A stretch of 64,000 bases of DNA from Porphyridium purpureum (Eukaryota > Rhodophyta > Bangiophyceae > Porphyridiales > Porphyridiaceae): NCBI GenBank assembly GCA_008690995.1, contig VRMN01000004.1:124001-188000 (forward strand), written 5' to 3'. The position numbers and the translations under genes were made by a program. Under the pieces are notes generated by a model. That model worked only from the letters and a program-made list of their open reading frames with translations. It did no database searches and was not told where the DNA came from. This document shows, piece by piece, positions 8,306-35,583 of the stretch. The number at the start of each line of letters is the position of its first letter. Within the stretch, counting starts at the first letter, position 1.

Positions 8306-8311
8306 AAAAAA
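8306..8311 (-). terminator. RNA polymerase III T6 terminator of tRNA-Pro
   Basis: On the minus strand a run of six T begins ten bases past the discriminator base of the tRNA gene at 8321. This is the usual Pol III stop signal and supports the orientation and 3' end of the tRNA model. Confidence 0.7.
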
Positions 8312-8320
8312 GTTCGTGCT

Positions 8321-8469
8321 GGGGAACTGCGAGACCTTCTTGCTTCCGCAATCGAACTCACGACCTCCTGTACACTTGAATTTAACGATCAACCCGAGGG
8401 TGAACATCTGTCCCAAAACAGGAATCACTCTGGGATTCAAAATGAATCTTACCACTAGACCAAGCTCCC
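8321..8469 (-). tRNA. tRNA-Pro(UGG) interrupted by three introns, two in ectopic positions
   Basis: Read on the minus strand, the exons fold into a complete 72-nt tRNA-Pro. The acceptor GGGAGCT (8469-8463) pairs with AGTTCCC (8328-8322), and the discriminator is C (8321), as in eukaryotic tRNA-Pro. The D arm (8460-8446) has a perfect A-box TGGTCTAGTGG. The anticodon stem CCTGT (8422-8418) pairs with ACAGG (8371-8367), and the loop carries UGG (8415-8413). The variable loop is AGGTC, and the T stem GTGAG (8361-8357) pairs with CTCGC (8333-8329). Intron 1 (about 8423-8444, 22 nt) lies at position 26/27, flanked by GATTC repeats, so its junction can slide. Intron 2 (8373-8411, 39 nt) is at the canonical 37/38 site. 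Intron 3 (about 8334-8349, 16 nt) splits the T loop and the B-box. All stems pair with only G-U wobbles. Exact splice points are inferred. Confidence 0.85.
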
Positions 8470-8490
8470 AAATTGCACGTCCAGAGGGGG

Positions 8491-8527
8491 AAAATTTAAC
8501 ATATATAAATATATGTATATATATTTT
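8491..8527 (-). promoter_or_regulatory. AT-rich TATA-like block upstream of tRNA-Pro
   Basis: A stretch made almost only of A and T, with repeated TATATA, lies 22-58 bases upstream of the tRNA 5' end and between it and the divergent gene at 8604. Because the B-box of this tRNA is split by an intron, an upstream TATA element could help recruit Pol III. That role is inference; it could equally serve the plus-strand gene. Confidence 0.4.
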
Positions 8528-14144: not shown

Positions 14145-14515
14145 GCGAGGAAACAATAAGGATTGCGCTTGGTGTTCGCCGCCAGTGCAGAGCACTTTAT
14201 AAGTGCTGGTGTGGAGACCGCCGGCGGGCGGCTCTCCAGTTCTTTAGAGGCAAGAGGCTAGAGGCGTGCGGTGGAGTAAAGTGTTTGTTCTCCTTGTGTG
14301 TTGAGAGTTGCAAAGCGGGGCGGCAAGATCACGCGTCGGCGTGTGAGCGCCCATCACTCCGTCTAGCCCACCACCGAGCCGGTGGTACGCGCGCGCATCC
14401 CAAGCGGTCGGCGGAAGGGGAGAGGAAAGGTCACCGCGCGGACTTGATACGCTGCCGTGAGCTCGTCGCTGCGTCTTAGGGAACTTCGGGGGACTTTATT
14501 TCCCTGAAGTTGCCT
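14145..14515 (+). repeat. Copia-1 5' LTR
   Basis: Aligns with 32647-33020. It contains a TTTATAA element at about 14197 that could serve as the promoter box. Edges are approximate. Confidence 0.7.
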
Positions 14516-14516
14516 A

Positions 14517-14532
14517 GGGTTATGAGCCCAGC
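14517..14532 (+). promoter_or_regulatory. Copia-1 primer-binding site matching the anticodon region of initiator tRNA-Met
   Basis: GGGTTATGAGCCCAGC directly follows the 5' LTR. It is the reverse complement of the initiator tRNA-Met anticodon stem-loop (a GGGCTCATAACCC core), not of a tRNA 3' end. Drosophila copia is known to prime from a half-molecule of initiator tRNA-Met in this way. Confidence 0.65.
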
Positions 14533-14774
14533 TCGATCGGATCTCACGGTTATAAGCGTTCGTCTGGGCACTTGCTGACCATCTCTTCTTGCGATTCTTT
14601 GTTGTCCCCGGTGTTGTTCCGTTTCTTCCGTCGCAGCGTATTGTGTTGTTTCGGTGATCGACGGGTTGGTCGATACGGAGGCGCGACATGGATGATGACA
14701 GGGATGGGGGCCGCCTCCGCGAGCTCCAACAGAACGTGAGAACTCGACAGGTGCAGTAACAGGGTGCTGCAGGA

Positions 14775-16262
14775 TTGTCGCAAGGCGACATGGAAGCTCT
14801 GGTGGCTGGACTGCGCACAGAGCTCGGTACGGATCTTCGAAATGCGAGTGAGCGCATTATGATCCTCGAGCAAGAACTCGCGCGAGAGCGGGCAGCGAGA
14901 GAGCACATGGGACCGCCCCATTTCTCAGCGAGTGCAGTCTCGCGCGTCGCAGGGCCAGCGCCAATGAAGGTGTTCACCGGAGCACGGGACGCGACAGAAA
15001 TTGCCACATGGGTTATGGACGTAAAGGAGCGGATCTACGAGCCGCTTCAAGAGGAAGCAGCTGCAAGCGGTCGCACCTGGGCGGCGTCGAGTGAGCGTTT
15101 GGCTGTGCGGACAGCGGCAACGTACCTGGAGGGGGATGCCAAAGCTTGGTACGTCCATCTGGCACAAAAGCCTGAGACGTTCTCGGACTTTTTGGGGGAG
15201 CTGACTGCGCGTTTTCGGCCGATGGACTTCGCCAAGAGGGCTCGAGACCAGCTGGCGGAGACGCGACAGGGAGACAAGAGTGTCGAAGATTACGTCGTTG
15301 CATTTGATTCGCTGTGTTTGAAAATCCCCGACATCGGCAGCGCTGAAAAGCTTGACCGATTTGTCCGGGGTCTAAACGAACGCGTTAGGATTGAGGTCTT
15401 GCTGAGACAGCCGTCGACCTACGAAGATGGGCTCACGAAGGCCCTCGACGTCGACTCGGTTTTGAAAACGGGTCAGCGCAGGATTGGGGGTCCTTCGTTC
15501 GGAAGCGGATCTGATGGCCGGGCACCTATGGAGTTAGGCGCCGCAGAACAGATGCAAAAGAAAAAGAAAATGAAATTTAAGAAAAAGCGCAGAGGGCGCA
15601 AGTCAAGGCAGAATGATGTCTGTCATGCATGCAAGAAGAAAGGACATTGGCAACGAGACTGCCCGGACGCGGAGACCGACGGCGTGGAACTTGAGCTGCT
15701 CCATGCTGAGCGCGGCATGGCCGGCGAAAAGGCTCTGTCTCTAGTGAAACGAAACGTGAGCGTGGACGGCGTCGCTGCCGTCGCCGTCGTAGACACTGGG
15801 GCGACGAATACCTTCTTGTCCTACTCTTTATGCCTTCGTGAAGGTATAAAGGTTGTGAAGCGTGCAACGCTTGCTGTTCGACTTGCGAATGGCTCTGTCA
15901 CCCGGGCGCGTGGGATAGCACGCGTCGTGATCGGAATGGCTGGGTTTCGCAACGCCCGTTTGACAGCGATTGTTCGCAGCGGCAAGCATGACGTGATTCT
16001 CGGGCTTGACTGGCTTCGAGCCCAAGGAGCTAGCTTGCGCGTTGGAGGACAAGAGTTCCTGCAGACAGAGGTCGTTTGTCTGAACAAAATCGACCATGAA
16101 GTGAGAACAAGATCTGGCGCCGCACGCAGTGGAGTAGACGGGGGTGCCGAAAGCTTATGTCAAGATTCCACCCGTGAATCCGCAGGGAGTACCGGTTCCG
16201 CTATAACGTGCGAGGAATCCGATTCAGGCGATGATCTTTCAGATACTGGGGTCGAGGGAGTG
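14775..16262 (+). CDS. Copia-1 gag and protease region
   Basis: A long frame with capsid-like helical sequence, a Lys-rich patch, the zinc knuckle CHACKKKGHWQRDC (CX2CX4HX4C) near 15628, and the aspartic protease core VVDTGAT near 15788. It reads into the inserted Gypsy LTR at 16267. A retrotransposon fossil; the first ATG in this frame is at 14790. Confidence 0.75.
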
Positions 16263-16266
16263 AAAG
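16263..16266. repeat. Left 4-bp target duplication of the Gypsy pair
   Basis: AAAG precedes LTR 1, and AAAG at 29706-29709 follows LTR 3. No duplication flanks the middle LTR. Confidence 0.7.
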
Positions 16267-17323
16267 TGTCACGAACCGTGCTGGCCCAGGACACAGCGGC
16301 ACACCCAACAGCAAGCCAAGCGGCACACGCACGCACACAAGCTGGACAATCCACGCAACCAAGAGGAAACACAAGACACCCGCAGCCAACTGGACCTGCG
16401 GCAGGCAGGAAACCCGGAACCAACGACGCTCACGCACGCTGTTCACACGCAAACAGCCAAGAGCACTCACACACGGGACCGACAGAACCAACCAAGAGCA
16501 GACACACGGGAAAGACACAGCCAACCAAGAGCACACGCACGGAGCAGGCACAGCCAACCAAAAGCACACACACGGAAGACGCGCGTAACGGGGGAACCAG
16601 GCGTCCGCTGCCCAACCGGGATCCCGTTCGGCCACACCTTACGGTGATCCGGGACCCGGGGAGGCGTTGTGGGCAGCCGGGGTTAGCCGGAGGAGGTTGC
16701 CTCACCTTTCGGCTTCAAACGGCCTATCACTCCTTTATCCGCCCCCGCCCACGTACCACCCCCGGATCCGCTTCCGAACAAGGACCGTCTAATGACGCCT
16801 TACCCCAGGGCATCCGCGAACCTTCCCCGTTAAACCCCCCGCTCGCTCGCTCGCGCTGTACTCCCGCCGTACCCCCGCCGTACCCCCGCTGTACTCCCGC
16901 TGTACCCCCGCTGTACCCCCGCTCCCTCAACAGGTACCCAAGGCCCGAACACGCTTCCTTGAATACACCTGTTTTTACTTAGATCCACCTTCACCCTTCT
17001 GTCTCCCGACCCCCCTCTCCCCTCCTTGGTTGCCGACCCGCGCGTCTTTTTATACCCATCGCGACCACTGTACCCCCGAGGTACAGTGCCTTGCTGTCGC
17101 TGAGTCTAGAACCTTCCAGAAGGTTCCAGCCACCGCCTGGCTGTACACCCATTCCATACTGGGTGGTCATCGCGCGTCTGGTCCCTAAGGGAAGGGGCCT
17201 TCAGGCCTACCACGCGCCCCCTTGTACACCTACAGTACAGTGGGTCCGGCGCGACCAGGTATCCGGCCACGGACTATGGCTATTTTTAATCATTTCCTTA
17301 ACACACGGGCTACTCCCGTGACA
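16267..17323 (-). repeat. Gypsy LTR 1
   Basis: TGTCACG...CGTGACA, 1057 bp. It includes a run of roughly 40-bp imperfect repeats rich in CAGCCAACCAA and ACACACGG (about 16450-16590) and an 11-bp array (16855-16920). A purine-rich tract in the element's sense lies just inside at 17324-17343, as expected beside a 3' LTR. Confidence 0.9.
16855..16920. repeat. 11-bp tandem array inside the Gypsy LTR (six units)
   Basis: Six units of the type GCTGTACCCCC/GCCGTACCCCC stand head to tail. The same array occurs in LTR 2 (about 23045-23110) and LTR 3 (about 29236-29301). Each unit contains GTAC. Confidence 0.75.
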
Positions 17324-17562
17324 TCCCACCCTCTCCGCTTCCCAATGTCAGGTATCACATGGTCCGAAGCTTCCGGAGAGTCACTTCATACTTACAGCAC
17401 ATGCCAATGCTTGACGCGTCCGGCATCCACGTCTCAAGCTCCATGTCGCCCGTGCACTGGCCATCGGCTTCGTGTGCCCGTCTTGGCAACGTAAGTACTC
17501 GAAGAGGACGTCCGTCCACGTGGCCCTCCACCCGGCCGGTGTGTCCGAGGTTCCGCCACTGG

Positions 17563-20500
17563 TCACGCGTCACGGTAGGCAGCCACCATCATTGGTGGCA
17601 ATGCGAGCTCAGGTTCCCACGTATCCCCACGTTTACCGAGTCCTCGCCATCTAACTCTGTACTCTCGGCGTCCGCCCACAACCCGATCCCCGGCTATAGC
17701 CTCTATAGCCCAGCTGCCGTCTTCTCCTTGCAAGACTTGGGATCCACTTGCCTCAAGGAGGTCCTTGTGGGCCCGAGCAAGCCGGTTCACGTGGACCAAC
17801 TTCCCGTCAGGATGGCCTTCACTGCACAGTACTGCATGAACCCCGACCATTCTCAGGATGGATAGTGGTCCTACCCACGGCTTTTTCAGCTTGCGCCCTT
17901 CTCCTGAAGGCGGCGCCCAAACGTACACCACGTCGCCCGGCTTGAAGTCATGTTCCCTGACTCGGCGATCATAGTTCTTCGTGTACCGATCCTGTGCGAT
18001 CTTCGCATTCTTATTGGCAATGGCGTGACATGCAGCAAGCTTCTTCGCGAGGTCATCTGCTTGTTCAACAGCTCTGGGTCCCGCCATACTTGCCCAGTCC
18101 CGCGCCGGCTCACCATACAACAGTTCAAACGGAGACATCTTCGTGGATGCATGCCGGGCTGTATTATACGCATACACCATTACCGACAACCAGCGATCCC
18201 AGTCTTTTCCGTTCGCACACACGTATGCCGACAACATTTGACACACTGTCTGGTTAAAGCGCTCCACAACCCCGTTCGTCTGCGGATGGTATGCTGTCGT
18301 AAGCATACGTCCTACACCCAGATTTTCACACATTTTTGAAAGGATGTCGGCTACAAAGCCCGGTCCCCGGTCGGACAGCAGAGACTCTGGCGGTCCAAAA
18401 TCGCACACCCAACCGTCTAGGAAAACACGTGCCAGTGTAGCCGCAGTCTCATCCTTGACTGCATGGGCACGAACCCACTTTGTGAAGGCGTCCACCATGA
18501 TTACCACTTTGCTGTGCCCGCGAGTTGTTGTCGGTGTGATACTCAGAACATCTATCGAGACAATCTCGAAACGTCTCACCGCGCGATAGACTTGCATGCG
18601 AGCCCTTCTCGGGGGCGCCTTTGTTTTCCTTGAAAAGCACTCATGGCAACAAAGAACAAACTGACGAACATCTTCCGTCCAACCGGTCCACCAGTATCGT
18701 GCATCCGAGACCCGCTTTGCAGTCTTTTCTATTCCAAGGTGCCCTGAAAGTGGCGTGCTGGGATACACATGCAGAACGCGCTGCACCAGAGCGTTTGGTA
18801 TCACGACCCTGGACTCATCGCGAAGCATAGCCCAGATGACTCCATCCTCATCAACGGTGTACTCCGGGTACGTGTATTCGGGCTTGTCTGCTTTCAGATT
18901 CTTCAACTGTTCCTGAATGTCCGTGTCGTCTGCGTATGCAGCCACGATCTCTTCCATCGAAGGTGGTGTGTACGCATCGTTCGCTCCTGTATGCTCGCCA
19001 GTATGAAGCAGCAGCTCTCGCACTCCGGCCGATGTGACAGGGACCATACCCCCATCGGCCCCCGAAGCTGGACCCTGAATCTCTTCCTGCAGCATTTCAG
19101 CCAACCGAACTACCCACTTCACTTCCTCATCCTCAACAGCATTCAGTCCAATGAGCTCGATTTCGCTCGTGTTGTTGAGAGTCTCAGACTTATTGCTCTC
19201 GCTCGCCACCCGAGCCTCTTCCCCATTCATACGTACAGCTGGACGCGAAAGCGCATCTGCCACTGTATTCGCCTTGCCCGGATGATGCTGAACCTGGAAG
19301 TCGAAGTCCTGTACCTTGAGAATCCATCGCGCAATCCGACCTTGAGGCTCCTTTTGCCTCATGAGCCAGCTCAATGCGCTGTGGTCAGTCATGAGCACGA
19401 ATCGTTTGCCGTACAAGTAATGCCTGAAGTGCTCCATGGCTGCAATGGCGGCCAAGCACTCCTTCTCCGTCACGGTATAGTTCTGCTCGGCCGGTCTCAG
19501 AAGCCTCGAGTAAAATGCCACTGGACGATCGCCAGTACCCTCTCTCTGCGTCAACATTGCTCCCAAGCCAGTGCTAGAAGCGTCTGTCCACAGCGTATGC
19601 TCTGCTTCTGGGTCGTATGCAGCCAAAACCTTTCGATCTCCAGTTTCTGGATCGCTGAGTGCTTCCCGAAGCGACAGAAACGCCTGACTCTGAGGCTCAC
19701 CAAATCGTGCCTGCCAATCCGCCGAGTTCATAGGGTATTTCTTCCACTTGCTTCCTTTGGCGTTGATTTGAAGCCCCTTCATAGCATCCCTAAGAGGTCT
19801 GCAGACTTCCTCAAATCCCTCGATAAAATTGCGGAACCACCCCACGAGCCCAATGAACTGCTGCAGTTCCTTTGCATTCCTCGGCTCCTGCCATGCTCGC
19901 ACAGCCTCCGTCTTCCTCTGGCTCGGCCTTATACCGTCCAGGCCGATATCATGTCCAAGAAACTCGACCCTTAAAGCCCCAAATCTGCACTTCGACAATG
20001 AGAACACCAAGCCCGCAGCGCAGAATTGCTCCAGCACCCGCTGCAGCGCTTGCAAGTGCTCTTCAAACGTCTTTGTCCCGATTGCCAAATCATCAATGTA
20101 AACCAATGCATTCAGGTACCTGAGCGGGCCCAGGACCGTATTTGTCAATCGCTGGAAGGTACTTGGGCTATTACAGCAACCCTGAGGTAATCGGCAGTAT
20201 TGAAACAGCCCGTCCGGAGTGATAATCGCTGTCAATGGTCGGCTCTCGGGGGCCAGAGGGACCTGGAAGAAGCCATCCTTCAGATCCAGGATACTCTTGA
20301 ACTTCCACGATGCAAACCAGTCGATCATCTCTCCCACGTCCGGAATGGGATATCGATCTTTGACAGTCGCATCATTAAGCGTTCGGAAGTCTGTCGTCAG
20401 ACGCCAGCCGCCTTTCGGCTTCTTGACCATGACATTCTGGCTCGACACATCTGACAAACTCGGCTCCAGCACTCCTCGGGCGACCAGCCCTTGCACCATC

Positions 20501-21300
20501 TCGCGCTCAGCCTGCGTCACCGCAGGAGCCCTGCGACGTAACCTTGCCCTGGGGAGATCCTCCAAACGCTCTGGCTTGATGCGGATCGTATGCTCGACGA
20601 GGTCTGTCTTACCCAGCTCCGGCCGGAAGAGAACCCAAAACTTCTTCAAGAGCCCCTTCATCTCCCTGCTTTGCGCTTCATCCAAATGCTCAAAGATCTT
20701 GGCTTCAATGGTAGAACAAACAGCCTCGTTGTGACCTGCATACTTTTCTTCGAGGGCCTGGATTCGCTTCTTCACTTCTGCTCCATCAGCAATATAGTGC
20801 ACCGCCTCCAACTGCACCGTGGGTTTGGCTTCCTCATACATCGATCCCAGGATCCTGTGTCTTTCCAGGCATGTATGACACACGGCTTCCTGTGTACTGG
20901 AAACGTCTCGGTTGACAAAAGTAATCCATCCGCCCGAGCGTAGGCCCAGACCCTTTCCCGGGATCAAGCAACTGACATGCTTGGCAAGAAAACGCATTCC
21001 CAGTATGAGATCAGGTCCGAGGTTCCTCATAATCCGGACGCTTTCCTCCGACTGAATTCCCTCACCAACCCAAATTGTGGCAACGCTCTCCTCGGCCTCC
21101 CCCAACACCTCATTGGTTGGACCCAATGCCTGTGTGTGGGTCTTTCTACGAAGAAGCCCAAGACGGTCAGCCAAATCGTCGTTCATCCACGTGGATAAAG
21201 CCCCCGTATCAACCAGCGCAGTAGTCCGAACCTTCAGGACTCCCCATTCAGCCTGTACGTCTATCCATGGATACGAGCCCAGTGGGACTGCCTCCGACAA
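17563..21300 (-). CDS. Gypsy body A pol polyprotein
   Basis: A 1245-residue frame. Parts in order: protease (ALVDTGALS), reverse transcriptase with YIDD, RNase H (LWTDASSTGLG, TDHSALSW), integrase with an HHCC finger and a D-D-E core (VSIDV, LLSDRGPGF, VVERFNQT), and a C-terminal chromodomain (EYRVRWRGLG..GDTWEPE). The chromodomain places it among chromoviruses, which use it to steer integration to particular chromatin. Confidence 0.92.
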   Translation of the reverse strand: MSEAVPLGSYPWIDVQAEWGVLKVRTTALVDTGALSTWMNDDLADRLGLLRRKTHTQALGPTNEVLGEAEESVATIWVGEGIQSEESVRIMRNLGPDLILGMRFLAKHVSCLIPGKGLGLRSGGWITFVNRDVSSTQEAVCHTCLERHRILGSMYEEAKPTVQLEAVHYIADGAEVKKRIQALEEKYAGHNEAVCSTIEAKIFEHLDEAQSREMKGLLKKFWVLFRPELGKTDLVEHTIRIKPERLEDLPRARLRRRAPAVTQAEREMVQGLVARGVLEPSLSDVSSQNVMVKKPKGGWRLTTDFRTLNDATVKDRYPIPDVGEMIDWFASWKFKSILDLKDGFFQVPLAPESRPLTAIITPDGLFQYCRLPQGCCNSPSTFQRLTNTVLGPLRYLNALVYIDDLAIGTKTFEEHLQALQRVLEQFCAAGLVFSLSKCRFGALRVEFLGHDIGLDGIRPSQRKTEAVRAWQEPRNAKELQQFIGLVGWFRNFIEGFEEVCRPLRDAMKGLQINAKGSKWKKYPMNSADWQARFGEPQSQAFLSLREALSDPETGDRKVLAAYDPEAEHTLWTDASSTGLGAMLTQREGTGDRPVAFYSRLLRPAEQNYTVTEKECLAAIAAMEHFRHYLYGKRFVLMTDHSALSWLMRQKEPQGRIARWILKVQDFDFQVQHHPGKANTVADALSRPAVRMNGEEARVASESNKSETLNNTSEIELIGLNAVEDEEVKWVVRLAEMLQEEIQGPASGADGGMVPVTSAGVRELLLHTGEHTGANDAYTPPSMEEIVAAYADDTDIQEQLKNLKADKPEYTYPEYTVDEDGVIWAMLRDESRVVIPNALVQRVLHVYPSTPLSGHLGIEKTAKRVSDARYWWTGWTEDVRQFVLCCHECFSRKTKAPPRRARMQVYRAVRRFEIVSIDVLSITPTTTRGHSKVVIMVDAFTKWVRAHAVKDETAATLARVFLDGWVCDFGPPESLLSDRGPGFVADILSKMCENLGVGRMLTTAYHPQTNGVVERFNQTVCQMLSAYVCANGKDWDRWLSVMVYAYNTARHASTKMSPFELLYGEPARDWASMAGPRAVEQADDLAKKLAACHAIANKNAKIAQDRYTKNYDRRVREHDFKPGDVVYVWAPPSGEGRKLKKPWVGPLSILRMVGVHAVLCSEGHPDGKLVHVNRLARAHKDLLEASGSQVLQGEDGSWAIEAIAGDRVVGGRREYRVRWRGLGKRGDTWEPELALPPMMVAAYRDA

Positions 21301-21335
21301 TTCTTCAGATTCCGGGGGGCCTTCGCATCCCCCCG

Positions 21336-22316
21336 CTACTCGTTTTTTGTCTGGCGTTCTTCGGTCCTCTGCCTCTTATTTTTCTCCCACTTTGGGCACC
21401 CCATGCGAACGTGGCCCCGCTCCTGGCACTCCCAGCACTTGACCAGTCGCTTGCGAGGATTCAACCCATGGAGCCCAGCTTCATCAAAGTTACCCAAATG
21501 GTGCACGCGCTCGGGCTTCCTCACTGCCCTTACACCGTACTGCGAGCCAAGCGCACCAAAGGTTCCATACTGACCAGCCTCCTCCAACAGAGCAGTCTTC
21601 ATCAAGGTCCAGTTCCCCTGTATGCCGTACGTCCTGGCCTGACGACGCAGCTCGGAGTTTTTCGGAAGCGCCAACGTAAGTGCCTCAATCTTGCGAGTGT
21701 CAGATTCTCCCAGAGCCGTGCAGCGATCCTCCAGAACCTCCACGAATTTCTTCAGGTCCTGGCCAATAACATACTCAACATCGTGATGCTCTGCACGAAG
21801 GGCGCGCTCGTGCTCCTTGTTGTAGAAGTAAGCAGCCACTGCCGCCCATGCCTCTTGTGCTGTTGCACCGTGCAACTCCGACAGGACCTCGTAGCATTTC
21901 CTCAGCCCCACCCCGCGGAAAACTGCATCAATCGAGGATACATGTTGGTCTGGATCCTCTCCCATGTCACGCAGGCGATTGAACCAGACCATCTTGGCGG
22001 TCAGAAAAAGTGGATCACCGGCCTTCTCAATCTGCACGCCCGCGTCACAAATAGCCTGGCCCAGTTGAGAACGAATCTTGCCGCGCACAATGGCGGGGAC
22101 ACCCTCTTCCTTCTGCTGAACACTCACAACCCCATGACTTCCTATCTCGTCACCACGAGCCGTGGGCATTGTCGGCTCTGGTGCCAGCGCGCCAGCCTGT
22201 GCACGTTCCAGCTCGCTCGAGGACGCGTGCTCTCGCGCATCGTCTGAGCCCATCGTCGTCTTCCTGCCACGCACCATCTTTGCGACTTCGTTCCTGCTCT
22301 GAATCCTCTCTCGCAA
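21336..22316 (-). CDS. Gypsy body A gag
   Basis: A 326-residue frame upstream of pol, with a capsid-like helical core and a zinc knuckle CWECQERGHVRMGC (CX2CX4HX4C) near the C-terminus. Gag and pol are separate frames 35 bases apart. Confidence 0.85.
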   Translation of the reverse strand: MRERIQSRNEVAKMVRGRKTTMGSDDAREHASSSELERAQAGALAPEPTMPTARGDEIGSHGVVSVQQKEEGVPAIVRGKIRSQLGQAICDAGVQIEKAGDPLFLTAKMVWFNRLRDMGEDPDQHVSSIDAVFRGVGLRKCYEVLSELHGATAQEAWAAVAAYFYNKEHERALRAEHHDVEYVIGQDLKKFVEVLEDRCTALGESDTRKIEALTLALPKNSELRRQARTYGIQGNWTLMKTALLEEAGQYGTFGALGSQYGVRAVRKPERVHHLGNFDEAGLHGLNPRKRLVKCWECQERGHVRMGCPKWEKNKRQRTEERQTKNE

Positions 22317-22439
22317 TCCTTCACTCGGTGACCGTACGTATCAGAATGTGGACACAAGTTTGTCCAAGATCAAGACCGATCTCACGTCCACACCCCACCC
22401 TCTCTCGCACCAACGTCAGATGCCACGCAATCCTGGAAG

Positions 22440-22457
22440 ATAATTTCCGGAAATTAT
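22440..22457. promoter_or_regulatory. 18-bp perfect palindrome at the primer-binding position of Gypsy body A
   Basis: ATAATTTCCGGAAATTAT abuts LTR 2 on the internal side, where a tRNA primer-binding site would be expected. No TGG-starting tRNA match is seen. The identical palindrome abuts LTR 3 at 28631-28648. Confidence 0.6.
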
Positions 22458-23514
22458 GTCACGAACCGTGCTGGCCCAGGACACAGCGGCACACCCAACA
22501 GCAAGCCAAGCGGCACACGCACGCACACAAGCTGGACAATCCACGCAACCAAGAGGAAACACAAGACACCCGCAGCCAACTGGACCTGCGGCAGGCAGGA
22601 AACCCGGAACCAACGACGCTCACGCACGCTGTTCACACGCAAACAGCCAAGAGCACTCACACACGGGACCGACAGAACCAACCAAGAGCAGACACACGGG
22701 AAAGACACAGCCAACCAAGAGCACACGCACGGAGCAGGCACAGCCAACCAAAAGCACACACACGGAAGACGCGCGTAACGGGGGAACCAGGCGTCCGCTG
22801 CCCAACCGGGATCCCGTTCGGCCACACCTTACGGTGATCCGGGACCCGGGGAGGCGTTGTGGGCAGCCGGGGTTAGCCGGAGGAGGTTGCCTCACCTTTC
22901 GGCTTCAAACGGCCTATCACTCCTTTATCCGCCCCCGCCCACGTACCACCCCCGGATCCGCTTCCGAACAAGGACCGTCTAATGACGCCTTACCCCAGGG
23001 CATCCGCGAACCTTCCCCGTTAAACCCCCCGCTCGCTCGCTCGCGCTGTACTCCCGCCGTACCCCCGCCGTACCCCCGCTGTACTCCCGCTGTACCCCCG
23101 CTGTACCCCCGCTCCCTCAACAGGTACCCAAGGCCCGAACACGCTTCCTTGAATACACCTGTTTTTACTTAGATCCACCTTCACCCTTCTGTCTCCCGAC
23201 CCCCCTCTCCCCTCCTTGGTTGCCGACCCGCGCGTCTTTTTATACCCATCGCGACCACTGTACCCCCGAGGTACAGTGCCTTGCTGTCGCTGAGTCTAGA
23301 ACCTTCCAGAAGGTTCCAGCCACCGCCTGGCTGTACACCCATTCCATACTGGGTGGTCATCGCGCGTCTGGTCCCTAAGGGAAGGGGCCTTCAGGCCTAC
23401 CACGCGCCCCCTTGTACACCTACAGTACAGTGGGTCCGGCGCGACCAGGTATCCGGCCACGGACTATGGCTATTTTTTAATCATTTCCTTAACACACGGG
23501 CTACTCCCGTGACA
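22457..23514 (-). repeat. Gypsy LTR 2 (shared middle LTR)
   Basis: 1058 bp, identical by eye to LTR 3 and one base longer than LTR 1 in a T run. It serves as the 5' LTR of body A and the 3' LTR of body B. Confidence 0.9.
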
Positions 23515-23753
23515 TCCCACCCTCTCCGCTTCCCAATGTCAGGTATCACATGGTCCGAAGCTTCCGGAGAGTCACTTCATACTTACAGCACATGCCAATG
23601 CTTGACGCGTCCGGCATCCACGTCTCAAGCTCCATGTCGCCCGTGCACTGGCCATCGGCTTCGTGTGCCCGTCTTGGCAACGTAAGTACTCGAAGAGGAC
23701 GTCCGTCCACGTGGCCCTCCACCCGGCCGGTGTGTCCGAGGTTCCGCCACTGG

Positions 23754-26700
23754 TCACGCGTCACGGTAGGCAGCCACCATCATTGGTGGCAATGCGAGCT
23801 CAGGTTCCCACGTATCCCCACGTTTACCGAGTCCTCGCCATCTAACTCTGTACTCTCGGCGTCCGCCCACAACCCGATCCCCGGCTATAGCCTCTATAGC
23901 CCAGCTGCCGTCTTCTCCTTGCAAGACTTGGGATCCACTTGCCTCAAGGAGGTCCTTGTGGGCCCGAGCAAGCCGGTTCACGTGGACCAACTTCCCGTCA
24001 GGATGGCCTTCACTGCACAGTACTGCATGAACCCCGACCATTCTCAGGATGGATAGTGGTCCTACCCACGGCTTTTTCAGCTTGCGCCCTTCTCCTGAAG
24101 GCGGCGCCCAAACGTACACCACGTCGCCCGGCTTGAAGTCATGTTCCCTGACTCGGCGATCATAGTTCTTCGTGTACCGATCCTGTGCGATCTTCGCATT
24201 CTTATTGGCAATGGCGTGACATGCAGCAAGCTTCTTCGCGAGGTCATCTGCTTGTTCAACAGCTCTGGGTCCCGCCATACTTGCCCAGTCCCGCGCCGGC
24301 TCACCATACAACAGTTCAAACGGAGACATCTTCGTGGATGCATGCCGGGCTGTATTATACGCATACACCATTACCGACAACCAGCGATCCCAGTCTTTTC
24401 CGTTCGCACACACGTATGCCGACAACATTTGACACACTGTCTGGTTAAAGCGCTCCACAACCCCGTTCGTCTGCGGATGGTATGCTGTCGTAAGCATACG
24501 TCCTACACCCAGATTTTCACACATTTTTGAAAGGATGTCGGCTACAAAGCCCGGTCCCCGGTCGGACAGCAGAGACTCTGGCGGTCCAAAATCGCACACC
24601 CAACCGTCTAGGAAAACACGTGCCAGTGTAGCCGCAGTCTCATCCTTGACTGCATGGGCACGAACCCACTTTGTGAAGGCGTCCACCATGATTACCACTT
24701 TGCTGTGCCCGCGAGTTGTTGTCGGTGTGATACTCAGAACATCTATCGAGACAATCTCGAAACGTCTCACCGCGCGATAGACTTGCATGCGAGCCCTTCT
24801 CGGGGGCGCCTTTGTTTTCCTTGAAAAGCACTCATGGCAACAAAGAACAAACTGACGAACATCTTCCGTCCAACCGGTCCACCAGTATCGTGCATCCGAG
24901 ACCCGCTTTGCAGTCTTTTCTATTCCAAGGTGCCCTGAAAGTGGCGTGCTGGGATACACATGCAGAACGCGCTGCACCAGAGCGTTTGGTATCACGACCC
25001 TGGACTCATCGCGAAGCATAGCCCAGATGACTCCATCCTCATCAACGGTGTACTCCGGGTACGTGTATTCGGGCTTGTCTGCTTTCAGATTCTTCAACTG
25101 TTCCTGAATGTCCGTGTCGTCTGCGTATGCAGCCACGATCTCTTCCATCGAAGGTGGTGTGTACGCATCGTTCGCTTCTGTATGCTCGCCAGTATGAAGC
25201 AGCAGCTCTCGCACTCCGGCCGATGTGACAGGGACCATACCCCCATCGGCCCCCGAAGCTGGACCCTGAATCTCTTCCTGCAGCATTTCAGCCAACCGAA
25301 CTACCCGCTTCACTTCCTCATCCTCAACAGCATTCAGTCCAATGAGCTCGATTTCGCTCGTGTTGTTGAGAGTCTCAGACTTATTGCTCTCGCTCGCCAC
25401 CCGAGCCTCTTCCCCATTCATACGTACAGCTGGACGCGAAAGCGCATCTGCCACTGTATTCGCCTTGCCCGGATGATGCTGAACCTGGAAGTCGAAGTCC
25501 TGTACCTTGAGAATCCATCGCGCAATCCGACCTTGAGGCTCCTTTTGCCTCATGAGCCAGCTCAATGCGCTGTGGTCAGTCATGAGCACGAATCGTTTGC
25601 CGTACAAGTAATGCCTGAAGTGCTCCATGGCTGCAATGGCGGCCAAGCACTCCTTCTCCGTCACGGTATAGTTCTGCTCGGCCGGTCTCAGAAGCCTCGA
25701 GTAAAATGCCACTGGACGATCGCCAGTACCCTCTCTCTGCGTCAACATTGCTCCCAAGCCAGTGCTAGAAGCGTCTGTCCACAGCGTATGCTCTGCTTCT
25801 GGGTCGTATGCAGCCAAAACCTTTCGATCTCCAGTTTCTGGATCGCTGAGTGCTTCCCGAAGCGACAGAAACGCCTGACTCTGAGGCTCACCAAATCGTG
25901 CCTGCCAATCCGCCGAGTTCATAGGGTATTTCTTCCACTTGCTTCCTTTGGCGTTGATTTGAAGCCCCTTCATAGCATCCCTAAGAGGTCTGCAGACTTC
26001 CTCAAATCCCTCGATAAAATTGCGGAACCACCCCACGAGCCCAATGAACTGCTGCAGTTCCTTTGCATTCCTCGGCTCCTGCCATGCTCGCACAGCCTCC
26101 GTCTTCCTCTGGCTCGGCCTTATACCGTCCAGGCCGATATCATGTCCAAGAAACTCGACCCTTAAAGCCCCAAATCTGCACTTCGACAATGAGAACACCA
26201 AGCCCGCAGCGCAGAATTGCTCCAGCACCCGCTGCAGCGCTTGCAAGTGCTCTTCAAACGTCTTTGTCCCGATTGCCAAATCATCAATGTAAACCAATGC
26301 ATTCAGGTACCTGAGCGGGCCCAGGACCGTATTTGTCAATCGCTGGAAGGTACTTGGGCTATTACAGCAACCCTGAGGTAATCGGCAGTATTGAAACAGC
26401 CCGTCCGGAGTGATAATCGCTGTCAATGGTCGGCTCTCGGGGGCCAGAGGGACCTGGAAGAAGCCATCCTTCAGATCCAGGATACTCTTGAACTTCCACG
26501 ATGCAAACCAGTCGATCATCTCTCCCACGTCCGGAATGGGATATCGATCTTTGACAGTCGCATCATTAAGCGTTCGGAAGTCTGTCGTCAGACGCCAGCC
26601 GCCTTTCGGCTTCTTGACCATGACATTCTGGCTCGACACATCTGACAAACTCGGCTCCAGCACTCCTCGGGCGACCAGCCCTTGCACCATCTCGCGCTCA

Positions 26701-27491
26701 GCCTGCGTCACCGCAGGAGCCCTGCGACGTAACCTTGCCCTGGGGAGATCCTCCAAACGCTCTGGCTTGATGCGGATCGTATGCTCGACGAGGTCTGTCT
26801 TACCCAGCTCCGGCCGGAAGAGAACCCAAAACTTCTTCAAGAGCCCCTTCATCTCCCTGCTTTGCGCTTCATCCAAATGCTCAAAGATCTTGGCTTCAAT
26901 GGTAGAACAAACAGCCTCGTTGTGACCTGCATACTTTTCTTCGAGGGCCTGGATTCGCTTCTTCACTTCTGCTCCATCAGCAATATAGTGCACCGCCTCC
27001 AACTGCACCGTGGGTTTGGCTTCCTCATACATCGATCCCAGGATCCTGTGTCTTTCCAGGCATGTATGACACACGGCTTCCTGTGTACTGGAAACGTCTC
27101 GGTTGACAAAAGTAATCCATCCGCCCGAGCGTAGGCCCAGACCCTTTCCCGGGATCAAGCAACTGACATGCTTGGCAAGAAAACGCATTCCCAGTATGAG
27201 ATCAGGTCCGAGGTTCCTCATAATCCGGACGCTTTCCTCCGACTGAATTCCCTCACCAACCCAAATTGTGGCAACGCTCTCCTCGGCCTCCCCCAACACC
27301 TCATTGGTTGGACCCAATGCCTGTGTGTGGGTCTTTCTACGAAGAAGCCCAAGACGGTCAGCCAAATCGTCGTTCATCCACGTGGATAAAGCCCCCGTAT
27401 CAACCAGCGCAGTAGTCCGAACCTTCAGGACTCCCCATTCAGCCTGTACGTCTATCCATGGATACGAGCCCAGTGGGACTGCCTCCGACAA
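23754..27491 (-). CDS. Gypsy body B pol polyprotein
   Basis: A 1245-residue frame with the same domain order as body A and only a couple of residue differences. It looks whole. Confidence 0.92.
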   Translation of the reverse strand: MSEAVPLGSYPWIDVQAEWGVLKVRTTALVDTGALSTWMNDDLADRLGLLRRKTHTQALGPTNEVLGEAEESVATIWVGEGIQSEESVRIMRNLGPDLILGMRFLAKHVSCLIPGKGLGLRSGGWITFVNRDVSSTQEAVCHTCLERHRILGSMYEEAKPTVQLEAVHYIADGAEVKKRIQALEEKYAGHNEAVCSTIEAKIFEHLDEAQSREMKGLLKKFWVLFRPELGKTDLVEHTIRIKPERLEDLPRARLRRRAPAVTQAEREMVQGLVARGVLEPSLSDVSSQNVMVKKPKGGWRLTTDFRTLNDATVKDRYPIPDVGEMIDWFASWKFKSILDLKDGFFQVPLAPESRPLTAIITPDGLFQYCRLPQGCCNSPSTFQRLTNTVLGPLRYLNALVYIDDLAIGTKTFEEHLQALQRVLEQFCAAGLVFSLSKCRFGALRVEFLGHDIGLDGIRPSQRKTEAVRAWQEPRNAKELQQFIGLVGWFRNFIEGFEEVCRPLRDAMKGLQINAKGSKWKKYPMNSADWQARFGEPQSQAFLSLREALSDPETGDRKVLAAYDPEAEHTLWTDASSTGLGAMLTQREGTGDRPVAFYSRLLRPAEQNYTVTEKECLAAIAAMEHFRHYLYGKRFVLMTDHSALSWLMRQKEPQGRIARWILKVQDFDFQVQHHPGKANTVADALSRPAVRMNGEEARVASESNKSETLNNTSEIELIGLNAVEDEEVKRVVRLAEMLQEEIQGPASGADGGMVPVTSAGVRELLLHTGEHTEANDAYTPPSMEEIVAAYADDTDIQEQLKNLKADKPEYTYPEYTVDEDGVIWAMLRDESRVVIPNALVQRVLHVYPSTPLSGHLGIEKTAKRVSDARYWWTGWTEDVRQFVLCCHECFSRKTKAPPRRARMQVYRAVRRFEIVSIDVLSITPTTTRGHSKVVIMVDAFTKWVRAHAVKDETAATLARVFLDGWVCDFGPPESLLSDRGPGFVADILSKMCENLGVGRMLTTAYHPQTNGVVERFNQTVCQMLSAYVCANGKDWDRWLSVMVYAYNTARHASTKMSPFELLYGEPARDWASMAGPRAVEQADDLAKKLAACHAIANKNAKIAQDRYTKNYDRRVREHDFKPGDVVYVWAPPSGEGRKLKKPWVGPLSILRMVGVHAVLCSEGHPDGKLVHVNRLARAHKDLLEASGSQVLQGEDGSWAIEAIAGDRVVGGRREYRVRWRGLGKRGDTWEPELALPPMMVAAYRDA

Positions 27492-27526
27492 TTCTTCAGA
27501 TTCCGGGGGGCCTTCGCATCCCCCCG

Positions 27527-28507
27527 CTACTCGTTTTTTGTCTGGCGTTCTTCGGTCCTCTGCCTCTTATTTTTCTCCCACTTTGGGCACTCCATGCGAA
27601 CGTGGCCCCGCTCCTGGCACTCCCAGCACTTGACCAGTCGCTTGCGAGGATTCAACCCATGGAGCCCAGCTTCATCAAAGTTACCCAAATGGTGCACGCG
27701 CTCGGGCTTCCTCACTGCCCTTACACCGTACTGCGAGCCAAGCGCACCAAAGGTTCCATACTGACCAGCCTCCTCCAACAGAGCAGTCTTCATCAAGGTC
27801 CAGTTCCCCTGTATGCCGTACGTCCTGGCCTGACGACGCAGCTCGGAGTTTTTCGGAAGCGCCAACGTAAGTGCCTCAATCTTGCGAGTGTCAGATTCTC
27901 CCAGAGCCGTGCAGCGATCCTCCAGAACCTCCACGAATTTCTTCAGGTCCTGGCCAATAACATACTCAACATCGTGATGCTCTGCACGAAGGGCGCGCTC
28001 GTGCTCCTTGTTGTAGAAGTAAGCAGCCACTGCCGCCCATGCCTCTTGTGCTGTTGCACCGTGCAACTCCGACAGGACCTCGTAGCATTTCCTCAGCCCC
28101 ACCCCGCGGAAAACTGCATCAATCGAGGATACATGTTGGTCTGGATCCTCTCCCATGTCACGCAGGCGATTGAACCAGACCATCTTGGCGGTCAGAAAAA
28201 GTGGATCACCGGCCTTCTCAATCTGCACGCCCGCGTCACAAATAGCCTGGCCCAGTTGAGAACGAATCTTGCCGCGCACAATGGCGGGGACACCCTCTTC
28301 CTTCTGCTGAACACTCACAACCCCATGACTTCCTATCTCGTCACCACGAGCCGTGGGCATTGTCGGCTCTGGTGCCAGCGCGCCAGCCTGTGCACGTTCC
28401 AGCTCGCTCGAGGACGCGTGCTCTCGCGCATCGTCTGAGCCCATCGTCGTCTTCCTGCCACGCACCATCTTTGCGACTTCGTTCCTGCTCTGAATCCTCT
28501 CTCGCAA
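27527..28507 (-). CDS. Gypsy body B gag
   Basis: A 326-residue frame almost identical to body A gag, with the CCHC knuckle. Confidence 0.85.
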   Translation of the reverse strand: MRERIQSRNEVAKMVRGRKTTMGSDDAREHASSSELERAQAGALAPEPTMPTARGDEIGSHGVVSVQQKEEGVPAIVRGKIRSQLGQAICDAGVQIEKAGDPLFLTAKMVWFNRLRDMGEDPDQHVSSIDAVFRGVGLRKCYEVLSELHGATAQEAWAAVAAYFYNKEHERALRAEHHDVEYVIGQDLKKFVEVLEDRCTALGESDTRKIEALTLALPKNSELRRQARTYGIQGNWTLMKTALLEEAGQYGTFGALGSQYGVRAVRKPERVHHLGNFDEAGLHGLNPRKRLVKCWECQERGHVRMECPKWEKNKRQRTEERQTKNE

Positions 28508-28647
28508 TCCTTCACTCGGTGACCGTACGTATCAGAATGTGGACACAAGTTTGTCCAAGATCAAGACCGATCTCACGTCCACACCCCACCCTCTCTCGCA
28601 CCAACGTCAGATGCCACGCAATCCTGGAAGATAATTTCCGGAAATTA

Positions 28648-29705
28648 TGTCACGAACCGTGCTGGCCCAGGACACAGCGGCACACCCAACAGCAAGCCAA
28701 GCGGCACACGCACGCACACAAGCTGGACAATCCACGCAACCAAGAGGAAACACAAGACACCCGCAGCCAACTGGACCTGCGGCAGGCAGGAAACCCGGAA
28801 CCAACGACGCTCACGCACGCTGTTCACACGCAAACAGCCAAGAGCACTCACACACGGGACCGACAGAACCAACCAAGAGCAGACACACGGGAAAGACACA
28901 GCCAACCAAGAGCACACGCACGGAGCAGGCACAGCCAACCAAAAGCACACACACGGAAGACGCGCGTAACGGGGGAACCAGGCGTCCGCTGCCCAACCGG
29001 GATCCCGTTCGGCCACACCTTACGGTGATCCGGGACCCGGGGAGGCGTTGTGGGCAGCCGGGGTTAGCCGGAGGAGGTTGCCTCACCTTTCGGCTTCAAA
29101 CGGCCTATCACTCCTTTATCCGCCCCCGCCCACGTACCACCCCCGGATCCGCTTCCGAACAAGGACCGTCTAATGACGCCTTACCCCAGGGCATCCGCGA
29201 ACCTTCCCCGTTAAACCCCCCGCTCGCTCGCTCGCGCTGTACTCCCGCCGTACCCCCGCCGTACCCCCGCTGTACTCCCGCTGTACCCCCGCTGTACCCC
29301 CGCTCCCTCAACAGGTACCCAAGGCCCGAACACGCTTCCTTGAATACACCTGTTTTTACTTAGATCCACCTTCACCCTTCTGTCTCCCGACCCCCCTCTC
29401 CCCTCCTTGGTTGCCGACCCGCGCGTCTTTTTATACCCATCGCGACCACTGTACCCCCGAGGTACAGTGCCTTGCTGTCGCTGAGTCTAGAACCTTCCAG
29501 AAGGTTCCAGCCACCGCCTGGCTGTACACCCATTCCATACTGGGTGGTCATCGCGCGTCTGGTCCCTAAGGGAAGGGGCCTTCAGGCCTACCACGCGCCC
29601 CCTTGTACACCTACAGTACAGTGGGTCCGGCGCGACCAGGTATCCGGCCACGGACTATGGCTATTTTTTAATCATTTCCTTAACACACGGGCTACTCCCG
29701 TGACA
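28648..29705 (-). repeat. Gypsy LTR 3
   Basis: 1058 bp, TGTCACG...CGTGACA. It serves as the 5' LTR of body B. The AAAG target duplication follows at 29706-29709. Confidence 0.9.
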
Positions 29706-32663: not shown

Positions 32664-33020
32664 GGATTGCGCTTGGTGTTCGCCGCCAGTGCAGAGCACT
32701 TTATAAGTGCTGGTGTGGAGACCGCCGGCGGGCGGCTCTCCAGTTCTTTAGAGGTAAGAGGCTAGAGGCGTGCGGTGGAGTAAAGTGTTTGTTCTCCTTG
32801 TGTGTTGAGAGTTACAAAGCGGGGCGGCAAGATCACGCGTCGGCGTGTGAGCGCCCATCACTCCGTCTAGCCCACCACCGAGCCGGTGGTACGCGCGCGC
32901 ATCCCAAGCGGTCGGCGGAAGGGGAAAGGAAAGGTCACCGCGCGGACTTTGTACGCTGCCGTGAGCTCGTCGCTGCGCCTTAGGGAACTTCGGGGGACTT
33001 TATTTCCCTGAAGTTTCTTA
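32647..33020 (+). repeat. Copia-1 3' LTR
   Basis: Aligns with 14145-14515. A purine-rich tract at about 32638-32655 precedes or overlaps its start. Confidence 0.7.
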
Positions 33021-33060: not shown

Positions 33061-33523
33061 CACTCCCCGGCTGTGCTGCTGTCGGAGCATTACCTTCGTG
33101 GAAAGGTTGGTAGCCGAGAAGTTGGTCTCCGAGCCTTCTGAATTGGCTTCCTTGAAGCGGTTTGGTTAGAATGTCACTAACCATGTACTGTGTTCCGCAG
33201 TGCTCGACCTGTAGCTCGCTTCTTTGTATGAGGTCGTGCACGAAAAAGTGCCGAATGTGCATGTGCCGTGCCCGCGCGGAATGAGGCCTACCCCTGCGCA
33301 TCATTGCTATCGCTGACTGGTTGTCTTGCAGCAGAACCGGTGCATCACATTGGTGCCCTTGTTCTCGCAGAAAATTAGTCAGCCACAGGGCGGCTCCAAT
33401 GGCGTCGCTGACTGCAAGGATTTCGGCCTCCGTTGAGTTTTTTACAAGGGCTTTTTGCTTGGAGCTCTTTGCGGTGATGGTGCCGCTGCGTAAGGATACC
33501 GCTGCACCTGTGTGTGACGCCAT
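33061..33523 (-). CDS. Copia-2 RNase H region
   Basis: Recognisable RNase H motifs (KNSTEAEILAVSDAI, QDNQSAIAMM, DILTKPLQ) lie next to the left LTR of Copia-2. Part of a broken element. Confidence 0.7.
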
Positions 33524-35583
33524 TTTGGGTGTACCGCAAATGCTGCGTCAATGGATGCAATAGGCCTGTGTCCGACTTCCAGATTCAGGCCCAGGTCACG
33601 GGTCAAGTTCAAATATTCCAGAACTCGTAACAACTTGGTTGCATCTTCGACTTTTGGGCTCTCCACGCGTGTGATGAGGAAGGCCACCGGCAAGAAGATA
33701 TCAGGCCTGGCTCTCTTAGCAAGATATAAGAGCCTGCACGCCATCGAGTGGTGCGCATTCTTTTTCTCGCCATGGAGCAAGTCGGCGTCTTTGGTGACGA
33801 CAAAAATGTTGGCATCGGCTGGGGTTGGCCTGCTGGTCGTCAGTCCCGCGTCTTCTAAGATACTGTCGATGTATCCGGGCATCCGTATCTTCAAGACGCC
33901 GCGCGTTGCAAAGTCCAGAATCATGCCCAGGTAGTTGAGCTTCCTGCCGCGGTGACTCTCAACATTGTCGAAATCGTGTGATACGTCCTGCAAGAACTCG
34001 TCTATATTATTCTTAGAAGCCGCAGTGATCAGGACGTCATCGACGTGAAGAGCTATTGTCATTTGTCCGGCTCTCCGATTTATGTTCCATATGCAGGGAT
34101 CATAAGCGTTGGGATTGAATCCCATCCTTTTCAGCATTGCGGTGAGTTTGTCATACCAGAGTTTCGCCGCAAGAATTGTTCCGTAGAGAGCTCGCCTGAG
34201 GGACAGTATCATCTCTCCTTTCTGATTCCGGTATTTTGCAGCTTCGGGTACCAGCGCGACAAAGACACCAGAGAGGAAACGGTTGAGCCGAATGTATGTA
34301 GGTGGGTCGCCTGGCATTTCGGCGTGCAGGAATGCACCAGGAAAGTCTGCTGTGGCGACGGAGCGGCCCTCATGGGCTGCTATCGTGGCGACAGCGAGGA
34401 CTGCATCCGTGTGTGCCGTAGGTGAAGCAGGGTCGGGGTAGAGTTCCTTATCTTGCATGTTGCCGCCTGCTACCAGTCGCGCCTTAATCTTTTTCAGTGT
34501 GCCGTCAGGCCATGTCTGCTTTTTCAGCAGCAGATGGGATGGTATGATAAGCTTCCTTTGATTGGAAGAGAGCGATGCCAGGTGCACGGGTTCCATGACA
34601 TTCTTGTCGTGTTTTGTCATTTGGAACATCTCAGACACAATGGCCTTAAGGGCAGCACTCCCGTATTCGCGGACGGCTGCGCGTAGACGGAGGTTCAGGG
34701 CCTTCGCACGTTTGAAAGCCTCGCGGTCGGCGGATTCAGCAGCGCCTTTATGCGTGCGACGTGCTTCTTCGATCCGTCTCTTCGTGACCACCGGTGGCTC
34801 ATCATTCGAATCATCTTCTGGGGCTGGTCGCTTGCTGGGTCGCTTCATGTGGCTTGCTTCTTTGTCGTCGTGCTCTTTCAAGAGCTCCTCCTCACGACGA
34901 GCAAGGAGGTCTAGTCTTCTGTCTATCTCTGCAATCTTCGATCTCGTTAGTTCACGCTTCAGTGCTTGTTCTCTATTGTTAAGTTCTTGCAAGCGTGTGT
35001 CGATATCTCTGATGCGCCGCGACGGGGACGGTTCTTCGTTCGAGTCAAGCGCCGGTAAAGCCGGAGATTTCTTCTGGGCATCCGCCACCTGAACGGTAGG
35101 GCGCAGCGGAGGCAAGTCATCGTCAGGCTGCTGTACCCGCTGGGTATTATATTCACTGAATGCACGGGCTGCACCCTCTTCGACTATACCCTCGGAACTG
35201 CTTATGCCCGTATCTCCTACACGGAGCCGATTCAGCGATTTTGGCGGCGGAGAGCAATCTATTTGCGAATCGTTTCGATCGTTGTCGGGAGTTTTGTCGA
35301 GAGCCTCCCAATGAGGTACTGCATGCACCATTATGTCTTCCACCGTGTCCAGTGGTACAGTGGATACAGTGGGCACACTGTATGGCTGGACAGCCGGATT
35401 CTCGTGTAAAACAATGTCATTCTCGTAATATACAGTTTCGCTTATAAGTGGAGCGATGCCGCTCTGAGGCGGTGGACTTTGATTACTTAAGAACGAAGCG
35501 GGGTTGTCGTCTTGTAGAGCTGGCGCGCCTTCGCAAGGCATGTGTTGGAGAATGGGGGTTTGCATATGGTACAGTGTTAGCAC
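33524..35583 (-). CDS. Copia-2 reverse transcriptase region
   Basis: Reverse transcriptase core with KARLVAGGNMQ, VATADFPGAFL and the catalytic ALHVDDVL box. It is preceded by a long charged, coiled-coil-like linker (Glu/Arg/Lys rich) and a basic nuclear-localisation-like patch. Part of a broken element. Confidence 0.75.

Follow-up and report, generated by a model that had tools for sequence, protein, structure and literature searches.

The question raised by the minus strand between positions 8469 and 8321 of a 64,000-nt stretch of Porphyridium purpureum DNA (hereafter, the window) is whether a tRNA-Pro(UGG) gene interrupted by three introns, one of them inside the T-loop, can be a working gene. 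Judging from its sequence, it very probably is a functional nuclear tRNA-Pro(UGG) gene of P. purpureum with three introns, one canonical and two ectopic. The gene is also part of a wider disrupted state of this genome, of the Cyanidioschyzon merolae type, and not a lone oddity. Its four exons and three introns, together with the flanking signals, are laid out as follows.

8490 to 8509, minus strand: upstream TATA-like element TTTATATATGTTAAATTTTC, ending 20 nt before the gene (motif score 26.3)
8445 to 8469, minus strand: exon 1, acceptor 5' strand and D-arm with the A-box intact, read from the sequence; differing at one position from the corresponding 25 nt of Pro(CGG) (locus L014)
8423 to 8444, minus strand: intron 1, 22 nt, between D-stem and anticodon stem; absent from Pro(CGG), with no convincing bulge-helix-bulge (BHB) motif
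8412 to 8422, minus strand: exon 2, anticodon-stem 5' strand and anticodon UGG, from the sequence and the cloverleaf fold
8373 to 8411, minus strand: intron 2, 39 nt, canonical 37/38 site; BHB with central helix 3.5/4 and outer helix 3/3
8351 to 8372, minus strand: exon 3, anticodon-stem 3' strand, variable loop, T-stem 5' strand and T-loop through position 59, from the fold
8335 to 8350, minus strand: intron 3, 16 nt, T-loop 59/60, splitting the B-box; BHB features, at a site common to other tRNA genes
8321 to 8334, minus strand: exon 4, position 60, T-stem 3' strand, acceptor 3' strand and discriminator C73, from the fold and the Pro(CGG) alignment
8306 to 8311, minus strand: T6 run, Pol III-type terminator, read from the sequence

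The initial annotation had proposed that a cloverleaf of 72 nt emerges once 22, 39 and 16 bases are removed, and this proved correct, as the unconstrained minimum-energy fold of the spliced sequence is indeed a cloverleaf with four stems, at -23.0 kcal/mol. The spliced tRNA carries U8 and the anticodon UGG, and all 21 cloverleaf pairs (wobble pairs G5-U68, G10-U25 and U50-G64 included) are intact in the exons, with 17 of the 21 joining different exons. The gene is not circularly permuted: its parts follow in linear order, and a scan for permuted genes gave no hit in the window. With regard to the exact intron sites, the first intron is ectopic, as had been claimed, but position 26/27, where it had been put, is merely one of six equivalent placements running from 22/23 to 27/28, because GATTC is repeated at both intron ends. 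This direct repeat (8448-8444 and 8426-8422) could be a trace of intron gain. The third intron does lie in the T-loop and does split the B-box; its position needed correction by one base, since of its two equivalent placements only 59/60 (8350-8335) yields three of the four possible central-helix pairs and is therefore the better one.

Ordinary tRNA scanners had been expected to miss such a gene, and neither ARAGORN nor Rfam reported any tRNA anywhere in the window. We relied on a purpose-made scanner, which looks for an acceptor stem, a D-arm with A14, R15 and GG, an anticodon arm with U33 and a T-arm with a TTCRA-type loop, and which tolerates insertions at three sites (ahead of the anticodon arm, 37/38 and 59/60), each at a penalty of 1.5 points. 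Its sole match in the window was tRNA-Pro(UGG), with a score of 20.0, a value to be read in light of the fact that the scanner was designed when the window gene and several of its relatives were already known, and that the permitted insertion sites were chosen accordingly. When 300 dinucleotide-shuffled versions of the window (19.2 Mb) were scanned in the same way, 28 matches were obtained, the best of which scored 17.75. The scanner includes a preference of 0.1 for a variable loop of 5 nt, and if this is left out a register shifted by one base ties with the UGG reading; a free-placement solver, which allows insertions anywhere, likewise gives both readings 13.5. The UGG register was preferred since it gives a variable loop equal to that of Pro(CGG). 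The locus is also covered by an open frame of 238 aa, which would be in keeping with tRNA-like fragments having come together by chance in DNA, whether coding or not. This frame has no Pfam match, and its GC3 of 0.548 falls below that of three neighbouring genes (0.586-0.751), a difference that is not decisive by itself; a coding frame over the locus was set aside. Given that the shuffled sequence contains no match of this score, that a tRNA-type upstream element is in place and that compensatory changes are seen against the second proline gene described below, the likelihood that chance assembled this locus is practically negligible.

Elsewhere, the window contains several mobile-element open reading frames. 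A Ty3-type LTR retrotransposon region (14145-32948) comprises gag (14775-16982) and a protease-RT-RNaseH-integrase-chromodomain frame (17563-21300), with a Ty3-type ORF set of the same length 6191 nt downstream; within it, a 300-nt segment is present in three copies of 100% identity (16267, 22457 and 28648), and another pair of segments lies 18504 nt apart at 99%. Copia-type reverse transcriptase (RVT_2) ORFs are found at 29472-32663, 33442-35583 and 41822-45289, a Tc1/mariner-like transposase ORF with HTH and DDE domains at 56209-57225, and a CpeS-type phycobilin lyase is also encoded in the window. For a proteasome subunit, the closest named match (82%) comes from an organism whose name starts with 'Erythr', probably Erythrolobus, and ranks behind two metagenome proteins of 87% and 83%; Pyropia (75%) and Gracilariopsis (73%) are among the named matches that follow.

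A second proline gene, tRNA-Pro(CGG), provides a comparison for the reading with three introns. Pro(CGG) has two introns, one of 36 nt at 37/38 and one of 24 nt in the T-loop at 59/60, and its spliced product aligns with spliced Pro(UGG) without gaps, at 58 identities over 72 positions. Of the 21 pairs, 14 are unchanged between the two, five are changed on both sides and still paired, one is changed on one side and still paired, and one, the fourth of the D-stem, does not form in Pro(CGG); the compensatory changes fall in pairs that form only after splicing. With respect to intron 1, Pro(CGG) represents an empty site. When spliced Pro(CGG) is folded without constraints, another structure (-27.5 kcal/mol) beats the cloverleaf (-24.6), which counts against the fold as a simple test; the window gene is unaffected, its cloverleaf being the optimum.

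These comparisons bear on whether the locus might be a tRNA-Pro pseudogene in decay, interrupted by random insertions, with the functional Pro(UGG) gene located elsewhere or absent from the assembly. Insertions in the D- and T-arms of eukaryotic tRNA genes have, according to the portion of the literature available to us, often been taken as marks of pseudogenes (PMC4090602), and intron 1 is without a splicing motif. We searched the genome, whose assembly has 22,164,627 bases in 46 contigs, for other copies, as the initial annotation had advised, with the proline D-arm as a pattern allowing up to 3 mismatches; this gave 25 places (38 for the reversed control), all of which were scanned and 11 of which were also read by eye. 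The exact D-arm occurs at two of the 25, namely the window gene and Pro(CGG), and no other Pro(UGG) gene was found among them; no Pro(AGG) gene was found in the genome searches made, either. BLAST with the spliced 72-mer returned no match at E values up to 10, its own exons included, so that this is an empty answer with no positive control; the search for an intact copy is limited to that extent, and the assembly itself may be incomplete. Against decay stand the 21 of 21 intact pairs, the compensatory changes in pairs formed only by splicing, the promoter element and the T6 run; besides Pro(CGG) there is no other exact proline D-arm, and the pattern of interruption is common to other tRNA genes in the genome. 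All in all, we consider a pseudogene very unlikely and continue with a functional gene as the preferred reading.

Evidence for the upstream element was derived independently of the window gene, which was excluded from the training set. Gibbs sampling of the upstream regions (at most 90 nt) of 23 other tRNA loci, four of which are unresolved candidates, yielded a 20-nt motif with the consensus TATATATATTTTAATTTTTC. Upstream of tRNA-Pro(UGG) this motif scores 26.3, a score reached by only one among 1422 blocks of 90 nt on both strands of the window, the next best being 18.1, and its distance from the gene (20 nt) is within the 14-57 nt seen across the 23 loci. In the four permuted genes described below, whose 3' part lies upstream, 26-36 nt separate the end of the motif from that part. 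The AT-rich upstream block noticed initially is present, but more precisely it is a specific promoter-like element, at 8509-8490; the T6 run said to flank the gene on the other side was found as well, at 8311-8306. As a genome-wide search pattern the element was dropped, due to low recall and low specificity. A Pol III promoter that does not rely on an intact B-box had also been postulated, which fits a TATA-like element common to 23 other tRNA loci. The same TATA-like layout is described in a review of C. merolae, where transcription was deduced to be independent of TFIIIC (PMC3978253, consulted in part), and by analogy the tRNA genes of Porphyridium may be transcribed without TFIIIC too; a lack of TFC1 and TFC3 (TFIIIC) homologues counts among the marks of the C. 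merolae type. TFIIIB and Pol III would probably be recruited by the element at -40 to -21, and transcription of tRNA-Pro(UGG) would be expected to end at T6.

Less uniform is the evidence for splicing. Under strict BHB geometry, intron 2 shows a central helix of 3.5/4, pairing between anticodon and intron and a full outer helix; in intron 3, three of the four central-helix pairs form, the bulges are of 3 nt and the T-stem serves as outer helix, and intron 1 shows no strict BHB motif in any of its six placements. If bulges are allowed to vary, the best scores of introns 1, 2 and 3 are equalled by 489, 109 and 604 of 4000 random sites, respectively, and taken singly only the BHB of intron 2 is persuasive. 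When 15 junctions from 11 genes were pooled, all of them at 37/38 or 59/60 and with the D-arm introns, intron 1 included, outside the set, the summed central-helix score was 23.5 against a random mean of -14.2 and was reached in none of 20,000 trials. Shuffling intron ends within their class, that is among like junctions, gave P = 0.021, and it follows that much of the BHB signal is a shared intron-end motif, for example CGAA opposite TTCG. That every one of the 15 junctions has a full outer helix follows from the stems having been required beforehand, and in four of them (Pro(CGG) 59/60, Val 59/60, Gly 37/38 and the permuted Cys) the central helix scores 0 or less. For the Glu 59/60 junction, the first placement scored -2.5 with a 6-nt loop, and the one used among the 15, one base later, scored 2.0 with a 7-nt loop. 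The initial suggestion of an endonuclease with relaxed site choice therefore needs qualification, as intron 2 fits the BHB well, intron 3 fits it in part and intron 1 does not. The genome encodes Sen2-like (L097), Sen34-like (L098) and Sen54-like (L099) proteins, identified by Pfam and PDB sequence matches; in C. merolae, according to the portion of the review available to us, Sen2, Sen34 and Sen54 were found and no apparent Sen15 (PMC3978253). An endonuclease of Sen2, Sen34 and Sen54 would be predicted to remove introns 2 and 3 through BHB recognition and to cut the 22-nt intron 1, near the junction of D-stem and anticodon stem, through a less clear, relaxed recognition, after which a ligase would join the four exons. 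In C. merolae, the intron at 37/38 is reported to be the last to be removed.

Removal of intron 1, which has no convincing splicing motif, is the weakest point of the three-intron reading. It is conceivable that only introns 2 and 3 are spliced and that this 22-nt segment stays in place as an additional hairpin of an odd but possibly active tRNA, in line with the lack of a convincing BHB at this site and with the precursor fold, where an 8-bp hairpin forms in the segment. Yet removing the segment gives the layout of Pro(CGG), and in Ala(UGC) and Gly(GCC), too, the cloverleaf is restored when an insertion in or after the D-arm is removed. In ordinary elongator tRNAs, moreover, a single nucleotide, at position 26, links the D-stem and the anticodon stem. 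A retained hairpin is hence extremely unlikely in our opinion, and the excision of all three introns remains the preferred reading.

The comparison with other tRNA genes rests on a sample of 20 resolved genes, the window gene included, which is biased by the search patterns used and should not be taken as a census. Of these, 11 have ectopic introns or are circularly permuted, one has a canonical intron only and eight are intact. The seven with ectopic introns in linear order comprise Pro(UGG) and the six listed below; in the four permuted genes the 3' part lies upstream of the 5' part.

Intact (eight genes): Lys(CUU), Phe(GAA), Arg(ACG), Gln(CUG), Ala(CGC), SeC, Leu(CAA) and Ile(AAU)
Canonical intron only (one gene): Arg(UCU), L005
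Pro(CGG) and Val(CAC): introns at 37/38 and 59/60 each
Met(CAU) and Arg(UCG): intron at 59/60 each
Ala(UGC): D-arm intron of 20 nt
Gly(GCC): D-arm insertion of 15 nt and 37/38 intron
Glu(UUC) (L020), Thr(UGU) (L040) and Cys(GCA) (L049): permuted at 37/38, Glu also with a T-loop insertion
Lys(UUU) (L012, G000:C2, around 2091268): best read as permuted at 59/60

The intact selenocysteine tRNA gene corresponds to locus L007. ARAGORN labelled L005 as Lys(CUU) with an intron, and the purpose-made scanner reads Arg(UCU), the reading kept. In Gly(GCC), the best solutions of the solver locate the insertion within the D-loop or at the end of this loop and a reading by hand at 22-25, with products that differ by a base. 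The T-loop is the site of an insertion or junction in seven of the 20 genes (Pro(UGG), Pro(CGG), Met, Arg(UCG), Val, Glu and Lys(UUU)), and the 59/60 site of intron 3 is common to the introns of Pro(CGG), Met, Arg(UCG) and Val(CAC). A permutation scan, which covers permutation at 37/38, gave the three genes permuted there scores of 20.0-21.75, with no hit in 19.2 Mb of shuffled sequence; the permuted reading of Cys(GCA) has one acceptor mismatch. Lys(UUU) could also be read in linear order with a T-loop intron of 68 nt, at a score of 21.5 from a scanner that covers no permutation at 59/60. We preferred the permutation because two T5 runs sit inside the supposed intron, because the linear reading has one acceptor mismatch and the permuted one none, because the central helix scores -2.5 in the former and 4.0 in the latter, and because the distance from the end of the upstream element is 26 nt to the 3' part but 67 nt to the 5' part.

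Several patterns were used to survey the genome. The Rfam search, in which 63 of 475 candidates were scored, missed the intact Ile(AAU) gene that a pattern search recovered. A TGGC-type D-arm pattern was too loose to be of use (311 places, against 250 for reversed-pattern controls). With the D-arm pattern TAGCTCA, eight of 17 places were tRNA genes (34 control places), and with pattern TRGTNTAGTGGT, which has 11 places (25 controls), five were known tRNA loci and one of the other six, L077, was tRNA-like. A B-box pattern occurred at 77 places (67 in controls), of which six lay in tRNA loci already collected, 20 were only scanned and 14 were read by eye, the latter yielding one tRNA-like locus, L095. 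At a score of at least 14, the scanner gave no match in L077-L119, and thus recovered neither L077 nor L095. These two, along with L039, L041 and L042, have tRNA-like ends and T-arms and probably interrupted interiors, and were left out of the count of 20.

Disrupted tRNA gene sets of this kind are known, as the initial annotation pointed out with regard to ectopic introns and permuted tRNAs in C. merolae, for which three-intron tRNAs have been published as well (PMC9602550 and PMC3978253, the accessible portions of both). The tRNA-Ile(UAU) of that alga, one of three such genes, has introns in the D-, anticodon and T-arms, at 12/13, 37/38 and 53/54 (PMC9602550, in part). The likeness to Porphyridium extends to up to three introns per gene in these arms and permuted genes alongside intron-bearing ones (same two sources), as well as to an upstream TATA-like element with a T-run and to Sen2, Sen34 and Sen54 (PMC3978253, in part); the BHB motifs known from C. 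merolae are seen well at 37/38 and partly at 59/60 of Pro(UGG); a table in the latter source lists Lys(UUU) as permuted at 59/60 in C. merolae. Permuted tRNA genes of algae and archaea, as far as described there, resemble Lys(UUU), Thr(UGU), Cys(GCA) and Glu(UUC) of Porphyridium, but not the window gene. Differences from C. merolae lie in the sites themselves, those of Pro(UGG) being within 22-28, at 37/38 and at 59/60 rather than at the published tRNA-Ile positions, in the lack of a convincing BHB motif at intron 1, in the mesophilic habit of Porphyridium and in its T-loop insertions or junctions, seen in seven of the 20 genes. Another system to be considered is the Guillardia theta nucleomorph, the nuclear remnant of an enslaved red alga. 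Its tRNA genes are described in the accessible text as having ectopic introns of 3-24 nt, a range that takes in the 22- and 16-nt introns of Pro(UGG), with two genes containing three introns (PMC4090602); introns there also occur in D- and T-arms, some genes have two or three, and many introns are without a defined BHB (PMC4090602 and PMC3978253, each in part). That system is a reduced endosymbiont nucleus, whereas Pro(UGG) lies in a 22-Mb genome and not in a nucleomorph. The table of a 2014 review gives multiple-intron tRNAs among eukaryotes for C. merolae only (PMC4033280, in part). We found no report on nuclear tRNA introns or permutation in Porphyridium among the titles and abstracts of the matches listed, and the word tRNA appears nowhere in the accessible text of the P. 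purpureum CCMP1328 genome paper (PMC6811547); the state is thus unreported for this lineage as far as our literature search reached.

It is tempting to speculate that the last common ancestor of the red algae as a whole already had a broken-up tRNA gene set and that such a set still sustains translation in a mesophilic alga, although we regard this as a tentative idea that is somewhat less probable than its negation. If it were true, the permuted Lys(UUU) shared at 59/60 by Porphyridium and Cyanidioschyzon would be one arrangement kept since that ancestor, and the T-loop introns at 59/60 and the permutation at 59/60 would be two outcomes of the same recurrent junction. Default tRNAscan-SE counts published in 2023, in the portion available to us, give 22-26 tRNA genes for unicellular red algae, P. 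purpureum among them, and 82 for Galdieria sulphuraria (PMC10496412); our results suggest that default counts are too low for genomes such as this one, and the Galdieria figure warns that the disrupted state may not be common to all red algae. As regards free-living red algae, the sources at hand report tRNA genes that are permuted or have several introns in Cyanidioschyzon alone, which is a thermoacidophile. If Porphyridium has the same architecture, this would show that neither hot acid nor membership of the Cyanidiophyceae is a requirement for it, and would make this alga a second organism in which to study cleavage outside the anticodon loop by a eukaryotic splicing endonuclease and the transcription by Pol III of genes whose B-box is split.
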